Assembly (NCBI GenBank): GCA_024401275.1
Contig: JAKSLJ010000011.1
Span: forward strand, 19,619 to 83,618
DNA: 64,000 bases
DNA from: Bacteroidaceae bacterium
GTDB taxonomy: Bacteria > Bacteroidota > Bacteroidia > Bacteroidales > Bacteroidaceae
Reading direction: 5' to 3'
The notes below the pieces were generated by a model. That model was not told where the DNA came from, made no database searches, and worked only from the letters and a program-made list of their open reading frames with translations. The translations under genes and the position numbers were made by a program. Below, piece after piece: positions 2,203 through 40,612 of the stretch. Position 1 is the stretch's first letter. Each line of letters begins with the position of its first letter.

Positions 2203-2265
2203 TGTAGGGCGAAGTTTACTGAGCCGTCTTCATTTGCGAAACGGCTCGGAAATCCTCGCCCTACA
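2203..2265. repeat. Palindromic repeat family A, copy 1
   Basis: A long imperfect hairpin just after nqrF. The left arm is TAGGGCGAAGTTTACTGAGC plus CG; the right arm is CGGCTCGGAAATCCTCGCCC plus TA. The loop is about 14 bases. The two arms pair at their ends (TGTAGGGCGA with TCGCCCTACA, and GAGCCGT with ACGGCTC) but differ in the middle. The same two unlike arms recur, inverted, at 6839-6896, so this is a dispersed element and not a chance terminator. It may still end nqr transcription. Confidence 0.85.
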
Positions 2266-6824: not shown

Positions 6825-6838
6825 CAAAACATAAAAAA

Positions 6839-6896
6839 GTAGGGCGAGGATTTCCGAGCCGCCCATAAAACTACGGCTCAGTAAACTTCGCCCTAT
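6839..6896. repeat. Palindromic repeat family A, copy 2 (inverted)
   Basis: The left arm TAGGGCGAGGATTTCCGAGC plus CG and the right arm CGGCTCAGTAAACTTCGCCC plus TA equal the two arms of the copy at 2203-2265 read on the other strand, base for base except at the tips. The loop (CCCATAAAACTA) is unrelated. Arm conservation with loop divergence indicates a mobile or templated element. It lies between pfp and the GH25 gene, 28 bases before the ATG. Confidence 0.85.
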
Positions 6897-6924
6897 ATTT
6901 TCACTTTCCCGATATAACTCTTTT

Positions 6925-35853: not shown

Positions 35854-36555
35854 ATGCCACATTATATAAAATATTTACCCTTGACGCTCGCCTTTTTTCT
35901 CTCCGTATTAGCCGCAGAAAAAATAAATGCGCAGAGCGTTAGTCCCGTTTTCTATGTAGAGACTGAAGATGGCGAAGAGGAACAGACATCATACGCTGGC
36001 TCTGCTCCGTTGAAGGTTCGCTTCGAGGCAAAAACGGAAGATTTGGACGAATATAGTGTAAACTACGAATGGAATTTCTATTCTGAGGGCGACACGACTG
36101 CCTACATGACACGCTACGGTGAGACTACGGAATATACCTTCAACTCTGCTGGACAACACAAGATTATTCTCCATGCTCGCTATAACGACGGAATATCTGA
36201 TGTGGACGTAAACAATGAGGAAGATCCACTCATCATAACAATCTCGGAAAGTCAGATTGACTTTCCAAATGCGTTCTCGCCAAACGGCGACGGCATAAAC
36301 GACACATTCAAAGCGAAAGCCGGAGCGAAAAGTATAGTCGAACTTAATGCCGCAATCTATAACCGCTGGGGACAGATGGTGTTCAAGTTTCGCGACATAA
36401 ACGACGAATGGGACGGAACTTATAAGGGACATCCGGTAAAAGACGGAGTTTATTTCCTGAATTGCGACGCAAAAGGTGCTGACGGCCGTCATTTCCGCAT
36501 ACGCAAAGACGTAAACATTCTGCGCGGATATACGGAATCGCAAATTAACAATTAA
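35854..36555 (+). CDS. Secreted protein with PKD-like domain and type-B T9SS sorting domain
   Basis: A 233-residue protein. After a signal peptide (to about residue 26, AEKINA) there is an immunoglobulin/PKD-like part (YVETEDGEEEQTSYAGSAPL onward, with YEWNFYSEG). The last 90 residues are the gliding-motility-type C-terminal domain: DFPNAFSPNGDGINDTF, AIYNRWGQMVFKF, EWDGTYKGHPVKDGVYFLN. Such a domain directs export by the type IX secretion system and attachment or release at the cell surface. The protein is very short for a T9SS cargo. uvrA starts 25 bases downstream. Confidence 0.88.
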   Translation: MPHYIKYLPLTLAFFLSVLAAEKINAQSVSPVFYVETEDGEEEQTSYAGSAPLKVRFEAKTEDLDEYSVNYEWNFYSEGDTTAYMTRYGETTEYTFNSAGQHKIILHARYNDGISDVDVNNEEDPLIITISESQIDFPNAFSPNGDGINDTFKAKAGAKSIVELNAAIYNRWGQMVFKFRDINDEWDGTYKGHPVKDGVYFLNCDAKGADGRHFRIRKDVNILRGYTESQINN

Positions 36556-36580
36556 TCACGAATTATCACACATTCAAAAG

Positions 36581-39526
36581 ATGATAAATGTTTACGGTGC
36601 TAAAGAGCACAATCTGAAGAACATAGATGTCCAAATACCTCGTAACAAGCTTACTGTCATAACTGGACTTTCTGGCAGCGGGAAATCTTCGCTTGCCTTT
36701 GACACCATCTTTGCAGAAGGACAGCGACGTTACATTGAGACTTTCTCTGCCTACGCAAGAAATTTCCTTGGCAACGGCTCGCGCCCGAATGTTGATAAGA
36801 TAACCGGTCTTTCGCCTGTTATTTCCATCGAACAGAAAACCACAAACAAGAATCCACGCTCAACGGTTGGCACTACTACGGAGGTCTATGATTTTCTCCG
36901 TCTGCTTTATGCTCGCGCTGGTCAAGCTTACAGCTATGCTACTGGCGAGAAGATGGTAAAATATACGCAAGAGGCCATCATCAATATGATTGTCAGCGAC
37001 TATGCTGGCAAGCCGATTTACTTGCTCGCTCCACTTATCCGAAACCGAAAAGGACATTACCAAGAGCTTTTTGAAAGCATGCGCCGAAAAGGCTATCTCT
37101 ACATCCGTATAGACGGCGAGGTCGTGGACATGAAGGCTGGCATGAGAGTTGACCGCTACAAGAACCACAACATTGAAGTGGTAATCGACCGCTTCAAAGT
37201 GCCGGAAACTGCTGACGAAAACGACCTTTTGCGTTTGTCAAAATCTGTAGCTACCGCCATGAAGCAGGGCGACGGAATGGTTGCCATATTGGAAAAAGGC
37301 AAGGAAGAAAGCGAACTGAAGTACTATTCTTCTCGCTTGATGTGTCCTACTACCGGTCTCTCCTACTCGGATCCTGCTCCGAACAAATTCTCTTTCAACT
37401 CTCCAGAAGGCGCCTGTCCTCATTGCAAAGGTCTTGGCAAAGTGTCTGCAATAGACTTGGAGAAAATTATTCCCGACGACAAAATCAGCATAAAGAACGG
37501 AGCAATAGTACCGCTTGGCAAGTATAAAAAGCAGTTGATCTTCTATCAAGTTGAAGCTATACTGGAGAGCTACGAATTGACAATTGATACTCCAGTAAAT
37601 CAGATTCCTGAAGACTGCATGCAGGAATTGCTTTATGGCTCACTTAAAGATGTTAGAATTTCGAAAGAACTAGTCCACACTTCTTCTGATTATTTCGTTC
37701 GTTTTGAGGGTATTGTGCGTTATCTTCAGCAGACAATCGAAGCTAATGATGACGATCCGAAAGCGAAAAAATGGGCTGAACAATTTCTTTCTGATCAGAC
37801 TTGTCCTGTCTGCAACGGACAGCGTCTGAACAAAGAGGCTCTTTCATATAAATTCTGGAACAAGAACATCGCGGAAGCTTCCGACTTAGACCTCGAAGAA
37901 CTTCGCGAATGGCTGGTTGAAGCGTCAAAGCATGTCGAGCCAAAACAGCAGGCTGTAGCAAAGGAAATACTCAAGGAGATTCTCACCAGACTTGACTTTA
38001 TGCTTGAGGTTGGCCTTGACTATTTGGCTCTCTCTCGACAGTCTTCATCACTTTCAGGCGGAGAATCTCAGCGCATCCGTCTTGCCACGCAGATTGGCTC
38101 TGGACTTGTCAATGTTCTATACATTCTTGACGAGCCTTCCATCGGTCTCCATCAGCGTGATAATGAGCGTCTTATTGCTTCGCTGAAGAAACTGCGAGAC
38201 ATGGGAAATACGGTCATTGTGGTTGAACATGATGAGGACATGATGCGCGCTGCTGATTACATCATTGACATTGGTCCTAAGGCGGGAAATGCAGGTGGAC
38301 AAGTTGTTTTCCAGGGCACCCCGGAAGAGATGCTAAAGAGCAAAACTCTTACGGCAAAATATCTTAACGGCGAACTTTCTGCCTGGAAACCAGATTGTCA
38401 GTCAGAGATTTCAGAATCGAACAATTGTATGGCAAAGATTTCTGAGCTGGGAAATTGTAGGGCGAAGATTTCTGAGCCGGAGCCGGAACCAGAGCAAAAG
38501 CCAAAGAAATCAAGGAAAAAGTCCAACTCTAACATACAGAACAGAGACTTATCTATAAAATTGAAAGGTTGTCGCGGCAACAATCTTAAGGGAATCGACA
38601 TTGATTTTCCACTCGGAAAGTTCATCGTCGTTACTGGTGTATCTGGTTCTGGTAAATCGTCTATTGTAAACGAAACTCTCCAACCAATCCTTTCTCACCA
38701 TTTCTATCGTGCTCTTAAAGAACCGTTAAAATACGATTCCATTGAAGGCATTGAGAATGTTGATAAGGTTGTAAGCGTTGACCAGTCGCCTATCGGTCGC
38801 ACACCACGTTCAAATCCAGCGACCTATACTGGCGTGTTCGCTGACATACGCTCTCTCTTTGTGAATCTTCCAGAAGCTCAGATTCGCGGCTACAAGCCTG
38901 GACGCTTCTCGTTCAATGTGAAAGGCGGACGCTGCGAAACTTGTTGTGGTAATGGCTATCGCACTATAGAAATGACCTTCCTTCCAGATGTCTATACGCT
39001 TTGCGAGACATGCCATGGCAAACGCTACAACCGTGAGACACTTGAAGTTCGTTACAAAGGCAAAAGTATTGCGGATGTTCTTGACATGACCATAAACGAG
39101 GCTGTTGAATTCTTTGAGCATCAACCTTCTATCCTTCAAAAAATCAAGACGCTGAAGGATGTTGGTCTTGGTTACATCACTCTCGGACAGTCATCAACAA
39201 CGCTTTCTGGAGGTGAGTCGCAGCGAGTAAAACTTGCAACAGAACTATCAAAACGCGATACAGGAAAAACTGTATTCATTCTTGACGAGCCAACAACTGG
39301 ACTTCATTTTGAAGATATTCGCATACTTTCCGAAGTGCTTCGAAAACTCGTTGACAAGGGAAATACCGTCATAATCATTGAGCATAATCTTGACATTATC
39401 CGTCAGGCAGACCACATCATCGACATCGGACCAGAAGGCGGACGCGGTGGAGGTCAATTAGTTGCAGCAGGAACTCCTGACGAAGTTAAGAAGAACAAAA
39501 ACAGCATTACCGGTAGATTCATCTAG
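36581..39526 (+). CDS. uvrA: UvrABC system protein A with repeat-expanded linker
   Basis: A 981-residue nucleotide-excision-repair ATPase, about 40 longer than E. coli UvrA. First ATPase: GLSGSGKSS (29-37) and SGGESQR (about 492); second: GVSGSGKSS (about 685) and [16 protein letters not shown] (about 876). Zinc modules: TCPVCNG and [10 protein letters not shown]...LCETCHG are complete; the first has CPTTG then ACPHCKG, so one Cys of the first pair is replaced by Thr. The linker between the two halves holds three 10-residue units (605-634: [30 protein letters not shown]) followed by [15 protein letters not shown]. UvrA with UvrB finds DNA damage. Confidence 0.95.
38393..38482 (+). repeat. 30-bp tandem repeat, three units, in frame in uvrA
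   Basis: Units start at 38393, 38423 and 38453, each 30 bases, in frame with uvrA. The core is ATTGTAGGGCGAAGATTTCT followed by GAGCCGG in the third unit; the first two have drifted. The third unit equals one arm of palindromic family A (TGTAGGGCGAAG..TT.CTGAGCCG at 2203-2227) at most positions, so the coding repeat appears derived from, or the source of, that dispersed element. Confidence 0.85.
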
Positions 39527-39657
39527 GCATTTTTCATCTAGGCATTTTCAGCTCATACCGCCACAATCCTCCCCTCAAAAAACTATCCCTCTCCCAAAAA
39601 ACTACCTCTAAAACACAAAACAATCATTTGCCGAGTTCTACAAATGAAACAAATAAG

Positions 39658-39686
39658 AAAGCCGTAACTTTTCAGCTACGGCTTTT
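39658..39686. terminator. Bidirectional terminator between uvrA and ddh
   Basis: AAAGCCGTA pairs with TACGGCTTT around ACTTTTCAGC; A-rich before and T-rich after, so it can work for both convergent genes. Confidence 0.8.
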
Positions 39687-39712
39687 ATTTCATATATTTG
39701 TAATCCTTATTC

Positions 39713-40612
39713 TTATACAAGATGTGCGATGAGATCCTCGCGATCACCTGGAAGATAGTCTATAACAGGGATTTCAATCATTGTGTAGCAACCTGGCTGC
39801 TGCTTCATAGAAGCGCGTGCTACATTTACGAGAACCTGTGCTGTAAGAGCTGGATTGTTAATCTTCATGTTGAACTCAATCATCTGATTGTGAGTCTTAC
39901 CAGAAACTCCCTTACGAACGAGGTTCACACCGTGACCAACATCGTTAAGTGCGTCAACTGACTCTACAGCAAATACGTGAGTCTCGTCGCTTGCGAAGTA
40001 TGGGTCTGCCTTAATAACCTTTGTTACTTCCTCAAGGCTTGCGCCTTCCTCGAGCTCTACGTAAACCATACGGCGGTGGATGCCTTCACCTACAGGAATT
40101 GTCATAGAAAGAGCGTCCTTAACACCTTCCTTTGAACGAACGCAAACAGAGTGACCCATAGAACGGCCAGGGCCGAAGTTTGTATAAGAAAGACCCTTTG
40201 GAGCAAGGCTCTGCATGAGTGTACGAACAACTGAGTCTGAACCTGGATCCCAGCCAGCTGCAATAACAGATACTGTGCCAGTCTTCTTATTGATTTCCAT
40301 AAGGTTCTTGCGATACTCAACGATATTTGTGTGGATGTCGAAGCTATCAACTGTATTGATGCCAAGAGGAAGAATCTGCTTTGCAAAGTCCTCGCAAGAG
40401 CGTGTAGGAGTAGCGAGAATGGCTACATCAACGTCTTTGAGTTCCTTGATATCCTTTACAACATCATACTGAGCGAGCTCTGCTGGCTTGTTTTCTGCAC
40501 CATTACGACGAACTATACCTGCAATCTCGAAGTCATCAGAAGCCTCGAGTGCTTCAATGGTAAACTTACCAATGTTGCCGTAACCAACTACGGCTGCACG
40601 AATCTTTTTCAT
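39713..40612 (-). CDS. ddh: meso-Diaminopimelate D-dehydrogenase
   Basis: A 299-residue NADPH enzyme. The nucleotide motif is VVGYGNIGKFTIEALEAS (GYGNIG at 10-15). Other blocks match the Ddh family: VAILATPTRSCEDFAKQILP, SVIAAGWDPGSDSVVRTLMQ and GPGRSMGHSVCVRSKEGVKD. It converts tetrahydrodipicolinate directly to meso-diaminopimelate by reductive amination, a one-step route to lysine and peptidoglycan precursors that avoids acylated intermediates. Single gene. Confidence 0.94.
   Translation of the reverse strand: MKKIRAAVVGYGNIGKFTIEALEASDDFEIAGIVRRNGAENKPAELAQYDVVKDIKELKDVDVAILATPTRSCEDFAKQILPLGINTVDSFDIHTNIVEYRKNLMEINKKTGTVSVIAAGWDPGSDSVVRTLMQSLAPKGLSYTNFGPGRSMGHSVCVRSKEGVKDALSMTIPVGEGIHRRMVYVELEEGASLEEVTKVIKADPYFASDETHVFAVESVDALNDVGHGVNLVRKGVSGKTHNQMIEFNMKINNPALTAQVLVNVARASMKQQPGCYTMIEIPVIDYLPGDREDLIAHLV

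Follow-up and report, generated by a model that had tools for sequence, protein, structure and literature searches.

From its sequence, the UvrA of this gut bacterium carries a stretch made from formerly non-coding DNA, consisting of three in-frame 30-bp units between its two ATPase halves. We consider it quite likely that these units descend from a GTAG-type REP spread in this genome, by insertion and repetition. Events of this kind are already known, since intragenic GTAG REPs, with uvrA included, have been reported in other phyla in the cited parts of Di Nocera et al. 2013 (PMC3733652), and the present case is an additional one. The fresh points are a Prevotella-like host, a bias towards solo arms in genes, and hints that the UvrA linker has taken up repeats more than once.

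The uvrA gene and its in-frame units

The window, by which we mean the whole analysed stretch of 64,000 nucleotides, contains uvrA at 36581..39526 on the plus strand as an intact open reading frame of 981 amino acids. It has the two ABC ATPase halves of the family and matches the NCBIfam UvrA model (NF001503) with 1315.5 bits, at a cut-off of 1147. The alignment to the closest UvrA in the PDB covers residues 3-599 and 659-981 and passes over the insert in between. The three units follow each other on the plus strand at 38393..38422, 38423..38452 and 38453..38482, so that the coordinates, the frame and the location between the ATPase halves agree with the earlier note on this DNA. The core of unit 3 (38456-38478) is an exact REP arm, that of unit 2 (38426-38448) is slightly eroded with 20 of 23 bases matching, and that of unit 1 (38396-38418) is eroded with 15 of 23, which gives 8, 3 and 0 changes per 23 bases for units 1, 2 and 3. 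Over the full 30 bp, units 2 and 3 are identical at 25 positions, units 1 and 3 at 19 and units 1 and 2 at 18, and the best other in-frame 30-mer of uvrA, with the units excluded, reaches at most 15/30 against unit 3. Tandem Repeats Finder also detected the 30-bp period, as well as a GAGCCG 6-bp tandem repeat of 3.7 copies (38474..38495, plus strand), which encodes Glu-Pro repeats and extends from the 3' end of the REP.

The insert lacks inverted repeats of at least 8 nt, so it consists of solo arms and not of a full palindrome. Chance similarity of the units was rejected based on these in-frame 30-mer identities and on the copy counts of a reversed pattern given below. A structured RNA was rejected as well, as no Rfam match was found at 36000-40000. 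The same genome has a second UvrA-like gene on contig C71, and its linker is ordinary.

The dispersed element

The core of unit 3, the 23-mer TGTAGGGCGAAGATTTCTGAGCC, was searched against the 3.2-Mb genome, which contains it at 18 places exactly and at 215 when up to three mismatches are allowed; the reversed pattern, used as a control, has 0 places in the same genome. This bears out the proposal of the earlier note that unit 3 is related to a dispersed palindromic element, for which it had suggested such a genome search. The 23-bp consensus of the REP arm is TGTAGGGCGA-NN-WTTW-NN-GAGCC, with the layout GTAG-GGC-GA-NN-WTTW-NN-GA-GCC. An unpaired GTAG is located at one end, and the first base of the consensus TGTAGGGCGA is T or A. 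Among 136 arms with fixed outer bases, 135 are paired at the first inner position (81 with G-C and 52 with A-T) and all 136 at the second (117 with G-C and 15 with C-G), and the GA mismatch is retained in 134 of 136. The inner bases change on both sides together, indicating a short stem-loop with complementary variants, as in GTAG REPs. The DNA folding energy of single arms is no better than that of shuffled sequences, so the hairpin rests on covariation.

Two inverted pairs of REP arms are found in the window. The first, at 2203..2265, is composed of 2203-2225 on the plus and 2243-2265 on the minus strand with a 17-nt spacer; the second, at 6838..6897, of 6838-6860 on the plus and 6875-6897 on the minus strand, with one mismatch each and a 14-nt spacer. 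Both had been described before as hairpins matching unit 3, and this match holds; the span given for the first stands, and the second had been placed at 6839-6896 and is corrected here.

The arrangement of the arms was studied in 1.04 Mb of sampled sequence, made up of the window, 40 long stretches (852 kb together with the window) from contigs matched by the REP search, the RAYT contig among them, and 35 short stretches chosen for containing listed REP copies. The long stretches are REP-rich, with about 100 arms per Mb compared to about 67 per Mb in the whole genome (215 in 3.2 Mb). With up to five mismatches allowed, 160 arms fall into 89 clusters, namely 58 inverted pairs, 26 solo arms, three triples, one array of seven and the pair in uvrA. 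Hits with five mismatches were then dropped (4 of the 160 arms), including one in aroC that reads as ordinary coding sequence, which leaves inverted pairs as 56 of 87 clusters in the sequence sampled. Here 143 out of 156 arms lie outside gene interiors. In the 852 kb, gene interiors account for 74% of the sequence and hold only 9 of 85 arms, so REP arms avoid genes overall. The seven-arm array, located at C2:18622-18968, has all arms in a single orientation at a spacing of about 54 bp.

Taken by its sequence features, the dispersed element is thus a repeat with the form of a GTAG-type REP: high-copy, dispersed, mostly intergenic and often present as inverted dimers. It shares with the GTAG REPs, as portrayed in the cited parts of PMC3733652, the GTAG end, the short hairpin with alternative complementary inner bases, the inverted dimers, the association with a RAYT gene and the in-frame copies in genes including uvrA. 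The phyla listed there are Proteobacteria, Cyanobacteria, Chloroflexi and the PVC group; Bacteroidetes, to which the present host belongs, is not among them.

A candidate RAYT transposase

A profile search of the genome with PF01797 gave four places, two of them above the cut-off. The candidate RAYT gene at C45:13941-14459 has REP arms near both ends (L010 1309-1418 and 1992-2055), so that this candidate is flanked by the same repeats, as expected for a GTAG REP. Its product scores 27.4 bits against PF01797 (cut-off 23) and 78.1 bits (E 5.9e-22) against the NCBIfam model for REP-associated tyrosine transposases, NF047646, just below the cut-off of 80. By eye, the motifs NHFH, WQ and YIVKNP were identified. 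TnpAREP genes with REPs are known in Bacteroidetes, and in the parts of PMC6006769 used here subclasses 2.4 and 2.6 of RAYT/TnpAREP resemble the candidate in the HuH motif NHFH, the WQ, a YIxxNP-type tyrosine motif, the REP arms beside the gene and the occurrence in Bacteroidetes. The tyrosine motif itself is YIVKNP here, compared to YIxNNP (2.4) and YIH[QN]NP (2.6) in the same source.

RAYT relatives at E <=1e-10 are present in 21 of 200 genus genomes, this genome included, and the others are 30-42% identical. Repeated 16-mers starting with GTAGGG occur in the flanks of at least 14 of 20 RAYT loci, a count that includes our own locus and was made without a control. In the loci L099-L117, the RAYT genes of other genus genomes are flanked by GTAGGG-starting repeats of their own, for example GTAGGGGCAGGCCCTG in L105.

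Solo arms in other genes

Besides uvrA, at least nine genes contain a REP arm in frame. Solo arms, in frame and away from the gene ends, are present in the genes for a KdtA-like Kdo transferase, an M16 peptidase, a GH97 protein, a UDP-galactopyranose mutase, a GH2 protein, a DNA methylase, a TIR-domain protein and a weakly Spy-like protein. The gene of a DUF6371 protein has three REP arms in frame. Two of these are 36 bp apart with matching flanks, indicating that tandem copying of an intragenic REP together with its flank occurs in this genome. The intragenic count excludes arms near gene starts (C2:84850, C3:21806, C4:28300 and a RuvB-like gene in L189) and in a short ORF on C23. Five of the six reading frames of the arm are without a stop, and four of these five are used by the 13 internal arms, of which uvrA has two; since open frames were used, the sixth is avoided by construction.

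In the sequence sampled, 8 of 26 solo clusters are intragenic compared to 0 of 56 inverted pairs (Fisher 4e-5), and the 852 kb alone give 4 of 11 compared to 0 of 28 (p 0.004). Two of the remaining five clusters are intragenic, those of uvrA and of the DUF6371 gene. That solo arms are sometimes in genes and inverted pairs, in the sequence sampled, are not, predicts which form of the REP inserts into genes or survives there. The GTAG REPs differ in this respect, as more than half of their intragenic inserts are dimers or grouped in the part of PMC3733652 that treats them, whereas none of the 56 inverted pairs is intragenic here.

Relation to repeats described elsewhere

Rickettsia palindromic elements are in-frame repeats in many protein genes and are tolerated in several reading frames. 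They had been named before as the precedent for the uvrA units, with which they share these features. The nearer precedent is given by the GTAG REPs named in uvrA of Opitutus terrae and Thioalkalivibrio in the cited parts of PMC3733652. The same parts file RPE-4 and RPE-6 under the CGTC REPs, for which they state that no transposase is known; the element here ends in GTAG instead of CGTC and belongs to another repeat family. They also describe REPs at about the same recB site in two Xanthomonas species. A literature search on REP and RAYT in Bacteroidetes or Prevotella and on repeats in uvrA showed, among the papers listed, no report of this case by title or start of the abstract.

UvrA linkers in related genomes

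We compared the best 80 of 558 confirmed UvrA relatives. The host is probably Prevotella-like, to judge from the named proteins among its UvrA relatives. The linker, taken as the distance between EHD and the second Walker A, was measurable in 76 relatives and has 93 residues in 65 of them, 92-95 in 71 and 101-102 in three, with 118 in L022 and 124 in L029. The UvrA of the window has a linker of 137 residues, 44 above the usual 93, and not about 30 as estimated in the earlier note. Neither the peptide motif nor the REP occurs in any of these 80 related UvrA loci (best 80 of 558), and an origin of the units from ancestral UvrA sequence was therefore rejected; the presence of the same residues in the UvrA of distant Bacteroidetes without the repeats was the finding on which the earlier reading would have fallen.

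Two of the 200 genus genomes have the REP pattern: the genome studied here, at 218 places, and G096, at 30. The closest UvrA relative, L018, comes from a genome (record JAKSLI, Horse_feces95 MAG) whose REP places are identical to those of G096, and the two were taken as one. This sister genome, 86% complete, has 26 REP arms by a stricter pattern. No RAYT relative was found in it at E <=1e-10; there are two other Y1 matches. The sister UvrA has the usual linker length and is without the REP, but it contains another dispersed repeat, the palindrome CCCTCCCTCACAGGGAGGG, within the linker. This sequence has seven exact copies in G096, of which the copy at C66:9620-9638 coincides in contig position with the one in uvrA, and 0 exact copies in the genome studied here. 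The presence of different repeats in the UvrA linker of two sister species speaks for tolerance of the site and not for selection of one sequence.

Two further linkers, those of L022 and L029, contain inverted arms of 33 and 34 nt, which are 88% and 94% complementary. In the surroundings of these loci, weak partial copies of the linker arms are found near uvrA of L029 and none near uvrA of L022. Perfect inverted arms of at least 15 nt occur in 2 of 76 linkers compared to 5 of 678 control windows, and arms of at least 8 nt in 4 of 76 compared to 43 of 678, where the linkers of L022 and L029 are longer than the 90-nt control windows. By length alone, the inverted arms in UvrA linkers are not compelling. 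We tentatively suggest, and regard as rather doubtful, that the UvrA linker is a recurrent landing site of dispersed palindromic repeats in Prevotella-like bacteria, which unrelated repeats (the REP, CCCTCCCTCACAGGGAGGG and the inverted repeats of L022 and L029) entered independently, and that solo arms, not inverted pairs, write new protein segments.

Six of the nine tagged genes were compared with their best matches in G096, with orthology assumed. The methylase match has an arm at the same site and the other five have none. The methylase arm (L163 2391-2413 and L199) is thus shared by both species, by descent or transfer; the match in the sister contains one TAA stop. At the KdtA site of G096 (L201), another repetitive insert of TTTCAGAAG-like tandem repeats is located where this genome has the REP, so that the kdtA-like linker also takes different repeats in the two species. 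No insertion rule was readable from the REP flanks or from the sister's sites, as the net length differences vary between the compared sites.

This genome is metagenome-assembled and consists of 71 contigs at 91.45% completeness, and assemblies do fail at repeats. An artefact of the assembly is nevertheless extremely unlikely, as the frame is intact across 981 amino acids, units 1 and 2 are unique sequence and the methylase arm recurs at the same site in the sister species.

Origin of the insert

In the scenario we favour, a solo REP arm would have entered the linker between the UvrA ATPase halves, probably in single-stranded form with the RAYT acting on it, and would have been retained because the frame was preserved, five of the six arm frames being free of stops. 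The arm and seven flanking bases would then have been repeated at the 30-bp period, the GAGCCG end may have been lengthened by slippage, and units 1 and 2 would have eroded, with unit 3 either preserved or restored from copies elsewhere. The insertion of the uvrA arm was presumably RAYT-driven.

This explanation is weakened by several observations, namely the unequal drift of the units, the 78.1 bits of the candidate RAYT under a cut-off of 80, the sister with 26 arms and no RAYT relative at E <=1e-10, the arm folding energies that are no better than shuffles and the varying net length differences at the compared sites. Some of these would fit better with template switching or with patching by recombination, through which other copies would have supplied the REP in uvrA, and not with RAYT insertion. 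The compared sites differ in net insert length and have had flanking bases replaced; REPs are numerous in the sister, where no close RAYT was found; and unrelated repeats without a known RAYT are present in the same UvrA linker of relatives. The RAYT gene here is flanked by REP arms, however, and GTAGGG repeats are a frequent feature beside RAYT loci in the genus; we regard patching as a rather unlikely alternative to RAYT insertion.

The earlier note had a repeat land in a tolerated linker, multiply and drift. The core of this reading is retained; a single insertion followed by even drift fits poorly with 8, 3 and 0 changes (about 0.01 to 0.03). Under that model the probability of an untouched unit 3 is about 0.012, and of any one untouched unit about 0.035, so that a renewal of unit 3 or a newly added copy is a real possibility. 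The units would then not be tandem copies of one insertion; instead, either the addition of new REP copies or the conversion of unit 3 from other REPs would have taken place more than once. Against this, the spacing is exactly 30 bp twice, units 1 and 2 resemble unit 3 beyond the core as well, and the DUF6371 gene offers a local example in which an intragenic REP was copied in tandem, flank included, at 36 bp. We therefore judge repeated input to be somewhat less probable than a coin toss would have it, and keep insertion followed by tandem repetition as the preferred scenario.

As predicted from the sequence, the insert most likely has a neutral effect on UvrA. It might alternatively have been selected for changing UvrA, either through a Cys-bearing linker or through altered repair or mutability, in line with a speculation on repair genes in the cited parts of Di Nocera et al. 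Each unit does encode one Cys, and repair genes are over-represented among the intragenic REPs in these parts of PMC3733652. Yet the other tagged genes here are unrelated (sugar hydrolases, a peptidase, a methylase and others), the ATPase halves of UvrA align normally and units 1 and 2 are eroded, and such selection is very unlikely.

The case provides a series for comparing how non-coding mobile repeats become protein: a single linker has both fresh and eroded copies, at least nine further genes are tagged, the sites in the sister are mostly unfilled, and the same genome encodes a candidate transposase.

Other repeat families

In the 852-kb sample of this genome, AATGCAGAATGCAGAA-type repeats come next to the REP in 16-mer frequency, and palindromes like ATTTTCTTATAAGAAA are frequent too. 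A second Y1 transposase ORF (L009 1050-2070, on C21 of the same genome) is located among GCCCTTTCAGGGCG and GGGCTGAAAGCCC repeats. It was rejected as the driver of the REP because the surrounding repeats are of another family, and it probably forms another transposase-repeat pair with them. At L009 770-825 the palindrome TCCCCACAGGGGAGGG lies in frame within an ORF of 336 amino acids (LLTSPQGRDSEQPE), so a second repeat family may enter genes too.
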